DNA of 64,000 bases from Serratia marcescens (GTDB lineage: Bacteria > Pseudomonadota > Gammaproteobacteria > Enterobacterales > Enterobacteriaceae): assembly GCF_006715005.1 (NCBI RefSeq), contig NZ_VFMJ01000001.1, positions 2,480,001 to 2,544,000 on the forward strand. The letters are read 5' to 3'. The notes beneath the pieces were generated by a model that saw nothing but the letters and a program-made list of their open reading frames with translations, ran no database searches and was not told where the DNA came from. Each line of letters opens with the position of its first letter. Within the stretch, counting starts at the first letter, position 1. Positions 10,085 to 47,393 of this stretch are shown here, piece after piece. A program made the translations under genes and the position numbers.

Positions 10085-10636
10085 GGTGCGGGATTCTAAA
10101 TAGAGCGCGTGAATAGCGCCACATCTTTTTCTGTGCTTAACTGTCTCTCTGACGGCGGACGAAACCCCAGCGGACAATAAGGCAGCAAGCCGATTTGAAC
10201 GTTTGCGATTTCTTCCGCAGTTAAGGAAAAGTCACCTTGCTATAACGGCATCAGCAGTGGAATAATGCAGTTACTTTCCGCGTTGATTCTCGTTAAACAG
10301 GGAAAACGGTGGAATTATAAAATTTGTCTGATCGCGCAAAAACGCAGCAATGGCGTAAGACGTAATGCGAAATCAAACAATTAGCGGGCTGCGGGTTGCA
10401 GCTTGGCCGGCAAATGGAATCAGATCTGTCGACGTAAATCAGAGGCTATTCCCCTAGTAAAAGTGCTGTCTTTCACAAAGAAAAGCAGGCTTACCGAGAT
10501 AATGCGCCCCTATGCAGGCGACAACCGTGAGGTTGACGGCTTTGCGAGAAGACACGGGGCTTTCGGTTTAACTCCGGCCATGAGGTTATTTTGCCCGCAG
10601 CTTTGTCGATAATGTAAAAATAACGAGTAAGTTAAG
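10085..10636. promoter_or_regulatory. rluC-rne divergent region with the long rne leader
   Basis: 552 bp with no credible gene. In E. coli the rne transcript has a leader of about 360 nt whose hairpins let RNase E control its own message. The same layout is seen here: a TATAAA at 10316-10321 could be the -10 of an rne promoter, leaving about 310 nt of leader. Several short hairpins are visible, for example the AACC/GGTT stem in the segment around 10520-10545. A short open frame at 10403-10612 has no ribosome site and is not called. Self-control is inferred from E. coli. Confidence 0.55.
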
Positions 10637-45619: not shown

Positions 45620-45919
45620 TCAGCGTGGCTGAGCGGCCTTGCCTTGCGCAAACATGAACATGCGCTGGGCCACGTCGTCGGCCTGTTTGATCTTCTGTTT
45701 TTGCGGTTCGTTGCTGCGATGAATGGCGCGGGCATAGGCGATTTCATGGGCCTGATCGATCATCGCGATGATCCGGTCACGCTCGGTCTTCTCCATATTG
45801 CCCAACATGGTGGTGATAATCGCCTGATAAGCGTTGGACGCGGCGGTCAGCGCTTTCTCTCTCGCCTCGAGGGCGGTGACGCGTTGCAAGAGTTCCTGCA
45901 GTTGCTCGGAGTGAGACAT
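45620..45919 (-). CDS. iraP: IraP-like RssB anti-adapter
   Basis: 99 residues. An N-terminal coiled coil (LQELLQRVTALEAREKAL) leads to AIITTMLGNMEKTERDRIIA, which resembles the IIVTAMLRNM core of E. coli IraP, the phosphate-starvation anti-adapter that blocks RssB and so spares RpoS from ClpXP. Size and helix order fit; the C-terminal 30 residues diverge. Strong GGAGG ribosome site. The name is a likely assignment, not a certain one. Confidence 0.55.
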   Translation of the reverse strand: MSHSEQLQELLQRVTALEAREKALTAASNAYQAIITTMLGNMEKTERDRIIAMIDQAHEIAYARAIHRSNEPQKQKIKQADDVAQRMFMFAQGKAAQPR

Positions 45920-46004
45920 ATCGACCTCCTGTTGCCGGGCAGCAAGCCTGCCTGATTACAGTTTAGCAAAGGATCGAAAGAGAAAGAGGAAGGAAAGCCA
46001 GCGG

Positions 46005-46078
46005 TTACGGTAAAGCACACCCGAAAATCCCAACGAGGAGCCGATAGTGCAAATCAACCCGGGTGCGCTTTACGGTAA
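46005..46078. repeat. 19-nt inverted repeat between iraP-like gene and tRNA-like gene
   Basis: TTACGGTAAAGCACACCCG at 46005-46023 is matched 17 of 19 by the inverted copy at 46060-46078, with a 36-nt loop. There is no T-run. It could be a processing signal for the tRNA-like transcript, an operator for the iraP-like gene, or a small mobile repeat. Confidence 0.55.
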
Positions 46079-46104
46079 GCGCGGTGAGATGAAGGGAAGA
46101 AAGC

Positions 46105-46201
46105 TGGCGCGCTATGCAGGACTCGAACCCGCGTCTATCAATTTTCAAGCCAAAACAAGCCATTATAAAACCAATCACTCTGCCAACTGAGTTAATAGCG
46201 C
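46105..46201 (-). tRNA. tRNA-like gene with stretched anticodon arm (isotype undetermined)
   Basis: 97 nt including encoded CCA. Acceptor stem GCGCTAT/ATAGCGC is perfect; the D arm ACTC-AGTTGGCA-GAGT and T arm GCGGG-TTCGAGT-CCTGC are canonical. The part between them is 43 nt after base 26, about 20 more than a class I tRNA, and no ordinary 5-bp anticodon stem with 7-nt loop forms. The best fold is a 9-bp stem ATTGGTTTT/AAAATTGAT (three G-U pairs) with a 21-nt loop, then a 4-nt variable region AGAC. A near-repeat GGCTTGTTTT/GGCTTGAAAA lies in it. A strong promoter suggests it is expressed. Confidence 0.7.
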
Positions 46202-46222
46202 GTTCCTTCGCTTCGGGGCGCC

Positions 46223-46250
46223 ATTATCCATAACAACATTATGGACTCAA
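46223..46250 (-). promoter_or_regulatory. Stable-RNA-type promoter of the tRNA-like gene
   Basis: On the minus strand TTGAGT (46250-46245), a 16-bp spacer, GATAAT (46228-46223), then a GC-rich discriminator GGCGCCCC and an A/T block upstream. This is the look of stringently controlled tRNA promoters. The start would be about 14 nt before the tRNA-like 5' end. Confidence 0.7.
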
Positions 46251-46313
46251 GCTTTTTTAGCATAATGCCCTGAATTTACAGATAAGTCTTAGGTTATCGA
46301 TAGCGCTCTGGCC

Positions 46314-47162
46314 TTACGGCAGCTCAATAATCCGGTAATCGCCGGCGATGAGCGGCTTACACAAAATCTTGTAGCCATCGCTGTCAAAGTGGCTGGCCGC
46401 GTTCTGCAGCCGCTGCGCCTGCGCCAGGCTGCTGACCGAGCCCAGATAAAACCAATTGTGAATCACATGGTACTGACGCAGGGTCTCGCCCTGTTCTTCC
46501 AACGCCACTCGCCCGGCGAACGGCCAACAGGCGATGCGTAGCTGTTCCAGCGCCGCGCCGAGCCGCCGCGCATGTTCCTGCGCCGGCTCCACGCCGCAGC
46601 AGGCGCCGGCGCACTTGCGCAGGCTGTAGCGGAAGCAGGCGCGCCCGGCGGGCAGCTTGTCGATCCCCAGCTTGCCGTAACATAAACGATGCTCGTCGGC
46701 GATGGCGCGCAGCTTTTCCAGCGCGGCATGGCGATTGGCAAACAACCCATAAAGGTGGGGCGTGACGGCGAAATCGATCTCTTTGGCGTGGGCAATCGTC
46801 ACCGTGTCCGCCTGCAGACGCAGCGCGCACAGCTGTTTCGAGCGCCGCAGGCGTTTGTTGAACAGCGGCTGTTGTTGCTTGATCAACTGCGCCTCCAGCA
46901 ACAATGCCCCCAATTCGCCTGCGGTCTCGATAAAGCTGATGCGCCGGGTTTGCCGCAGCATTTTTGCCTCATCCTGCGCACGGAAATGCGCCATGACCCG
47001 GCTGCGTACGTTGACGCTTTTACCGATGTAAAGCGGCAGGCTTTCGCTTTCGCCGTGAAACACATAGACGCCCGGCCCTTTGGGCAACGGCGCCAGGCAG
47101 GCGCGCAGGTGCTCCGGGTATTGGTAAATGTCGAGTTCCGGCTCGAGGCGGTTTGGCATCAT
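46314..47162 (-). CDS. cho: Excinuclease Cho (UvrC homologue)
   Basis: SOS-induced endonuclease that makes the 3' incision at bulky lesions loaded by UvrAB. 282 residues from the ATG at 47162 (a second ATG follows at 47159). The GIY-YIG domain is residues about 25-110 (GPGVYVFHGES, LPLYIGKSVNVRSRV, and LLLEAQLIK with the catalytic Glu). It lacks the second nuclease and HhH domains of UvrC, as expected. A LexA box lies upstream. Confidence 0.92.
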   Translation of the reverse strand: MMPNRLEPELDIYQYPEHLRACLAPLPKGPGVYVFHGESESLPLYIGKSVNVRSRVMAHFRAQDEAKMLRQTRRISFIETAGELGALLLEAQLIKQQQPLFNKRLRRSKQLCALRLQADTVTIAHAKEIDFAVTPHLYGLFANRHAALEKLRAIADEHRLCYGKLGIDKLPAGRACFRYSLRKCAGACCGVEPAQEHARRLGAALEQLRIACWPFAGRVALEEQGETLRQYHVIHNWFYLGSVSSLAQAQRLQNAASHFDSDGYKILCKPLIAGDYRIIELP

Positions 47163-47192
47163 GACGGCGGCGTTATCCTGCTGATGAATGAA

Positions 47193-47212
47193 TACTGGTT
47201 TTTTAGCCAGTA
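47193..47212. promoter_or_regulatory. LexA box of cho
   Basis: TACTGGTTTTTTAGCCAGTA: CTG-N10-CAG with an AT-rich core, 31 bp before the cho start. cho is a known SOS gene in E. coli. Confidence 0.88.
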
Positions 47213-47393
47213 TAGCGTGCCGTGCAGCCGGTTGCACACCCGGCGGATAATAACTCGCCGTGATCTTTAGCGCGAAAGCCTTTACTATCCCCTTTCCAGC
47301 GGGAAAGCGCCTCACGTTTAGCGCCAGTTCAAGCTGGCGCTGCCATGATGGCAGACTGGAACCGCCGCTTTTATCGTTATGGAAAACCTGGGT

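Follow-up and report, generated by a model that had tools for sequence, protein, structure and literature searches.

A conserved tRNA-like RNA gene of Serratia in which a long arm replaces the anticodon arm

Positions 46105-46201 on the minus strand of the window (by which we mean the whole stretch of 64,000 nucleotides of Serratia marcescens DNA that was analysed) are a real, conserved gene for a tRNA-like RNA, which we call TLR. An earlier note, made from the letters of this DNA, had drawn attention to it, and that observation is confirmed; the strongest evidence for the reality of TLR is its conservation. Our preferred reading, to which we attach about as much belief as doubt, is that TLR is a dedicated non-coding RNA gene, and that a tRNA was turned into a non-decoding tRNA mimic in an ancestor of Serratia. 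A near-invariant tRNA body, the lack of an anticodon arm of 5 bp and 7 nt, a promoter-like site at a fixed distance and a structured RNA that follows all point to this reading. The parts of the locus are the following.

46105..46201, minus strand: TLR, a tRNA-like RNA of 97 nt with acceptor, D and T arms and encoded CCA, known from tRNA finders and from orthologues
46137..46175, minus strand: long arm of 39 nt replacing the anticodon arm; its strands pair in 13 of 13 haplotypes
46167-46175, minus strand: arm strand ATTGGTTTT, 9 nt
46137-46145, minus strand: arm strand AAAATTGAT, 9 nt
46146-46166, minus strand: loop of the long arm, 21 nt
46223..46250, minus strand: promoter-like site of the sigma-70 type, TTGAGT-16-GATAAT; the 21 nt between it and the TLR 5' end are rich in GC
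46004..46079, minus strand: companion structured RNA, without an Rfam match; two small hairpins are predicted inside a long stem of at most 22 pairs
45960..45969, minus strand: TTGCTAAACT, probably a -10 region belonging to the IraP-like gene itself, conserved as TTGCTARACT before the ATG
45620..45919, minus strand: IraP-like sigma-S anti-adaptor gene, the downstream neighbour (Pfam PF10796)
46314..47315, minus strand: excinuclease Cho gene, the upstream neighbour (NCBIfam NF007833)

The earlier note had described a perfect acceptor stem, canonical D and T arms, an encoded CCA and a gap of 43 nt without a standard anticodon stem, and all of this is found in the sequence. The acceptor stem has 7 bp (GCGCTAT/ATAGCGC), the D stem 4 bp and the T stem 5 bp including one G-U; the T loop is TTCGAGT, the D-loop GG is present and the discriminator is G. 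By eye, the positions that would correspond to U8-A14 and G15-C48 in tRNA numbering are intact. From base 26 to the T stem there are 43 nt, made up of ATTGGTTTT, a loop of 21 nt, AAAATTGAT and the variable region of 4 nt. The pairing of the two strands into an alternative 9-bp stem with a 21-nt loop, as had been proposed, is borne out, three of the nine positions being G-U or U-G. A stem of at least nine pairs at exactly this position arises in about 0.2% of shuffled sequences (0.18% of single-base and 0.21% of dinucleotide shuffles, 20,000 of each type). Given its composition, TLR as a whole folds with no exceptional stability (z from -0.24 to -1.34 in 10 haplotypes). Each of the 13 haplotypes forms all 16 acceptor, D and T pairs; the mean pair probability of the 9-bp arm is at least 0.5 in seven of these, and in six it is 0.01-0.31 although the remaining arms were fixed.

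Programs that search for tRNAs accept TLR. The Rfam tRNA model (RF00005) gives it 44.6 bits against a cut-off of 29, yet the match has to bridge the anticodon loop, where cmscan sets 4 model positions against 26 unaligned bases. ARAGORN labels it 'tRNA-Tyr(ata)' in the window and labels its orthologue in two relatives 'tRNA-Lys(ttt)'. Since orthologues receive such different names, these anticodon calls are meaningless. As ARAGORN files it as an ordinary Tyr or Lys tRNA, TLR is likely to be overlooked; given the inconsistent identities, Serratia annotations may list a spurious tRNA at this place. A search of open-licence PMC papers showed no description of TLR.

To compare segments of the locus, 23 loci were used; six other TLR loci were left out, five of them belonging to the group of the window and one being split by an island. 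The TLR body (58 positions) is 98.3-100% identical to the window sequence across the 23 loci. The constraint relaxed relative to its flanks that marks a tRNA pseudogene is not seen: identity drops to as little as 30% in the spacer that leads to the companion RNA, and to 61% in the one behind it. Upstream, identity goes down to 62% in the 40 nt before TLR and to 43% in the stretch from -70 to -41. The earlier note had named absence from relatives and a freely decaying arm as signs against a functional gene. Neither is observed: TLR is present in 26 of the 30 genomes from the same genus (Serratia) and in two further lineages, and the arm strands hardly change. We considered whether TLR could be a decaying pseudogene, and its presence in those 26 genomes, together with the identity of the body beside diverged spacers, rules this out.

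Across 13 haplotypes the two arm strands, 9 nt each, are nearly invariant, and the loop between them has 19-21 nt of variable sequence. Changes in the arm are limited to A27 to G, which turns A-U into G-U, and to one U-A to U-G beside a loop deletion. Every cell (100%) of the arm pairing stays paired, and two of the nine pairs vary, one-sidedly, via G-U. The note had proposed a search for compensatory changes in the long arm; over the 13 haplotypes the search found two-sided change in 0 of 9 pairs. Pairing of the strands in all 13 haplotypes while the loop varies argues for selection on the fold rather than on a read-out of the loop. Since both the tRNA body and the arm strands stay near-constant while loop and spacers diverge, selection acts on these and not on a readable anticodon. 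Directly after ATTGGTTTT the loop starts with ATA, TTA, CTA, ATC, AAA, ACC or AAC, and hence no anticodon is kept. TLR is under about the constraint expected of a real tRNA, yet has no anticodon. Two observations on the arm speak against the mimic reading: it lacks two-sided covariation, and it is strongly predicted in no more than 7 of the 13 haplotypes.

What else could preserve such an arm? It might open so that its loop or its strands can base-pair with some other RNA, such as an mRNA, TLR then being an antisense regulator. The conservation of ATTGGTTTT, AAAATTGAT and the loop motif TTGGCTA/TTGGCTT would fit this, as would the weakness of the stem and the poor support for the 9-bp arm in 6 of 13 haplotypes. 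Much of the loop, however, differs in length and sequence between species, and antisense pairing alone does not demand invariant acceptor, D and T arms. We consider such a regulator unlikely.

With regard to the origin of TLR, the earlier note had also offered a tRNA disrupted by a small duplication, based on the repeat GGCTTG...GGCTTG. In exact form the repeat is confined to the haplotype that the window shares with its nearest relatives (loci L001-L012); other long-arm species have GGCTTG or GCTT, then GGCTA, in its place. The duplication itself does not survive the comparison, for relatives carry the long arm without the exact repeat, and no own tRNA is close enough to be a parent. The closest one shares 40 of 54 body positions with TLR, and the best in a partial comparison (35 sequences, TLR included) shares 39. 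Hence TLR has no recent parent among them, and we rejected the idea that a known tRNA had recently acquired a duplication or an insertion. A small open reading frame starting from an ATG in the loop was rejected too, as its frame, length and stop differ between species (by eye).

TLR shares with elongator tRNAs the acceptor, D and T arms, the 4-nt variable region, the CCA, a promoter of the stable-RNA type and use as an integration site. It is unlike them in that none of the 13 haplotypes provides a 5-bp anticodon stem, a 7-nt loop and a constant anticodon. It might nevertheless decode, if the arm were shortened by splicing or if codons were read through the large loop. Acceptance by tRNA finders is in line with this; against it, a spliced arm would be a 5-bp stem with three adjacent wobbles, and no anticodon is conserved. 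Nor does decoding seem to need TLR: in the genome of the window, the stretches with tRNA-model matches yield 51 distinct sequences, to which ARAGORN gives 40 anticodon labels; setting aside the spurious 'ata' of TLR leaves 39. Among the 86 tRNA-model matches listed for that genome, TLR has the lowest score. Four reduced Serratia genomes give no TLR match, so TLR is not essential for translation there. On these sequence comparisons a decoding function appears unlikely, and we regard decoding through splicing or the large loop as very improbable. The suggestion in the note that the RNA does not decode in the usual way thus gains support from a conserved, promoter-bearing tRNA shape without a constant anticodon.

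A perfect acceptor and an encoded CCA would also suit an aminoacylated donor, where charged TLR supplies its amino acid to a non-ribosomal reaction. Most synthetases require the anticodon. Those that do not rely on other marks: G3-U70 for Ala, a long variable arm for Ser and Leu, and an extra G-1 for His. TLR has none of these, and its discriminator G has become A in one lineage. Such a donor therefore looks improbable to us.

The note had further claimed a promoter of the strong, stable-RNA kind with a GC-rich discriminator. The promoter-like site TTGAGT-16-GATAAT is present, with a GC-rich stretch after it, and matches the consensus at 9 of 12 positions; shuffled sequences contain 0.4 such sites on average. 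An equivalent, TTGnnn-16-GATAAT, is found at 29 of 29 TLR loci, at a distance of 21 nt from the TLR 5' end in 28 of them and of 20 nt in the remaining one. Read along the minus strand, the genes are arranged as cho, TLR, companion RNA, IraP-like gene, ylaC. The Cho product scores 457.5 bits with NCBIfam NF007833 (cut-off 367). The IraP-like product passes Pfam PF10796 (25.7 bits, cut-off 23.2) and stays under the NCBIfam equivalog cut-off (26.8 against 78).

The IraP-like gene seems to be transcribed on its own. At 28 of the 29 TLR loci TTGCTARACT lies 40-41 nt 5' of its ATG, the 29th locus being split by an island; by eye, -10-like elements resembling this motif precede four of the eight IraP-like genes of other genera, and neither TLR nor the companion RNA was found at these eight loci. 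As the IraP-like gene has a probable -10 of its own, TLR and the companion look like a separate unit. To judge from these arrangements, they look like a unit that came to lie between cho and the iraP promoter in the ancestor of Serratia.

The companion RNA starts 25 nt past the TLR CCA in the window. Its identity across the 23 loci is 82-100%, and an interior of 32 nt is conserved. Over 20 haplotypes 92.0% of the cells of its structure pair, compared with 50.2% in the best slid version; pair columns 6-71 are unpaired in 17 of the 20. Two-sided changes occur in 3 pairs (shuffles 1.4), a weak measure since 40 of 500 shuffles attain three. Counted by cells there are 7 two-sided changes, where shuffles have 1.9, none of 500 reaches seven and slid versions have at most 4; the structure was derived from the same sequences, and kinship alone can beat such shuffles without any structure. 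The overlapping stretch 46010-46085 folds with z = -3.18. Rfam has no match for the companion at E<=1. In our view the companion is itself a candidate for a new non-coding RNA. A reading frame on the opposite strand was rejected, as it is lost where the spacer changes length (by eye). By eye, too, the companion's interior, CTATCGGCTCCTCGTTG, is similar to what one obtains by reverse-complementing the ribosome-binding site of the IraP-like gene (45917-45934, minus strand). In the window about 15 interrupted pairs could form; the side of the ribosome-binding site changes in several species and the interior is constant. This pairing is only a lead.

If the companion is the effector, TLR may be there to serve it, by letting RNase P and the tRNA 3' enzymes cut and stabilise the transcript and so free the companion. 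Such a processing module is the chief rival to the mimic reading. Several observations agree with it: the 4 of 149 family genomes in which TLR was found are also those with the companion, at 28 of 29 loci the companion follows the CCA at a distance of 17-33 nt, no terminator-like site was found in 45850-46350, and the companion has two-sided pair changes as well as the conserved interior. Moreover, a role that needs nothing beyond processing of the tRNA type could keep the same invariance, which counts against a mimic. What processing does not need is a unique long arm with near-invariant strands, and in genome G006 an island parts TLR from the companion, so that TLR stands alone. On the whole we think it unlikely, yet the first of the alternatives to consider.

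Returning to the tRNA mimic, the following course of events can be suggested. RNA polymerase would make a short precursor holding TLR and the companion. RNase P and 3' processing would then free an RNA of some 97 nt that is L-shaped and ends in CCA. Its extended arm is weak (9 bp, three wobbles and a short inner pairing) and may exclude TLR from the decoding site. The RNA could then occupy a protein that reads the elbow and acceptor of tRNAs, acting as a decoy, a tether or a regulator. Candidate classes of partner are a nuclease, a modification enzyme, a synthetase, an elongation factor or an exonuclease. A more specific suggestion is a module of two RNAs, in which a CCA-ended mimic is co-transcribed with a structured RNA beside a sigma-S anti-adaptor gene and is tied to stress physiology. 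TLR might, for example, be a decoy that shields tRNAs from a nuclease, or a tether that redirects a tRNA-processing enzyme. We put this forward tentatively and give it distinctly less credence than the mimic reading as such.

The island in G006 deserves separate mention. A tyrosine integrase gene (PF00589, PF22022, PF13356) begins about 156 nt past the TLR CCA. At a distance of about 38.6 kb the TLR 3' end recurs as a partial copy, and behind this copy come the companion RNA and the IraP-like gene. This distant copy beyond the integrase element indicates that TLR serves as an attachment site. The TLR beside the integrase is complete, as is commonly seen when an element has inserted into a tRNA gene. 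The element behind TLR also has a phage-type helicase, phrog_62; the coordinates for element and 3'-end copy are L079 3980-6980 and L027 1501-1525. It could be argued from the integrase and the 3'-end copy that TLR is a relic tRNA gene kept solely as an integration site for mobile elements. We strongly disfavour this explanation: just one of 29 loci is interrupted between TLR and the companion, the conserved promoter and 5' half would be left unexplained, and nothing is decaying.

The distribution of TLR is narrow, being Serratia only in the samples taken, and this also weighs against the mimic reading. The four Serratia genomes without a match are reduced (1.5-3.6 Mb) and 95-100% complete. 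The two further lineages are GTDB genera with Serratia-named members, S. rubidaea and 'Serratia sp. AKBS12'; in G045, a relative of S. rubidaea, cho was not found within the stretch examined. A covariance model built from the 13 haplotypes gives nine of 392 family genomes, from three Serratia-named genera, 116-120 bits, and all other matches among those listed have at most 57 bits and the length of a tRNA (76 nt); the scan scored at most 10 candidates per genome under strict filters, which a diverged TLR elsewhere could escape. By blastn, 4 of 149 family genomes match and nothing outside Serratia-named genera does; among 274 class genomes the own genome is the sole match, and among 40 relatives of the S. 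rubidaea genome matches are confined to two of its own genus. E. coli genomes and plasmids gave nothing, and phages only weak matches, in 5 records, to the 3' part of a tRNA-Arg. Exact patterns, a search that would miss diverged copies, found neither TLR nor the companion in viral contigs. IraP-like matches exist in 17 other genera, and no TLR was found beside the gene at the 8 loci of other genera inspected or beside ylaC at 24 loci; a short match near one such locus was rejected, as it falls within an unrelated open reading frame.

In three of the reduced genomes (G025, G026 and G027; loci L157, L158 and L159) the iraP-like match has internal stops, and TLR and the companion were not found; in the fourth an iraP-like match was not found either. 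The joint loss of TLR, the companion and an intact iraP-like gene is suggestive, but it is also expected under general genome reduction.

We know other RNAs that borrow the shape of tRNA. Passages of PMC8394870 describe YrlA, a bacterial Y RNA, as a non-coding RNA of about 90-150 nt with arms resembling the D, T and acceptor arms of a tRNA; they add that the tRNA-like domain of YrlA binds PNPase and undergoes modification by tRNA enzymes. In Salmonella its gene sits in the rsr operon (parts of PMC8394870 and PMC7790460), and a passage of the latter proposes a decoy role against an anticodon nuclease. YrlA is the nearest precedent for the proposed action of TLR. The two differ at their ends: the stem closing the 5' and 3' ends of YrlA, in these passages, binds Rsr, whereas TLR ends in a 7-bp acceptor with a free CCA. 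We rejected TLR as a Y RNA. It has the tRNA-like D, T and acceptor arms and lacks the Ro60-binding end stem, and no Ro60/Rsr was found, the TROVE/Ro60 domain (PF05731) being detected in 0 of 30 same-genus genomes by a search whose control was positive in 1 of 14 named genomes. tmRNA (SsrA), like TLR, combines a tRNA-like acceptor and T arm with something else where the anticodon arm would be. Unlike tmRNA, TLR is 95-97 nt long, has a complete D arm and is without an mRNA-like domain or a conserved tag frame; ARAGORN reported no tmRNA in the window. If the mimic reading is correct, TLR would give a second bacterial kind of tRNA mimic beside the Y RNAs, minus their protein partner, and a clean test of what tRNA-binding proteins recognise once decoding is removed. 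Elsewhere in the window, 10274-10612 on the plus strand is the RNase E 5' UTR element rne5 (338 bits), which is ordinary.
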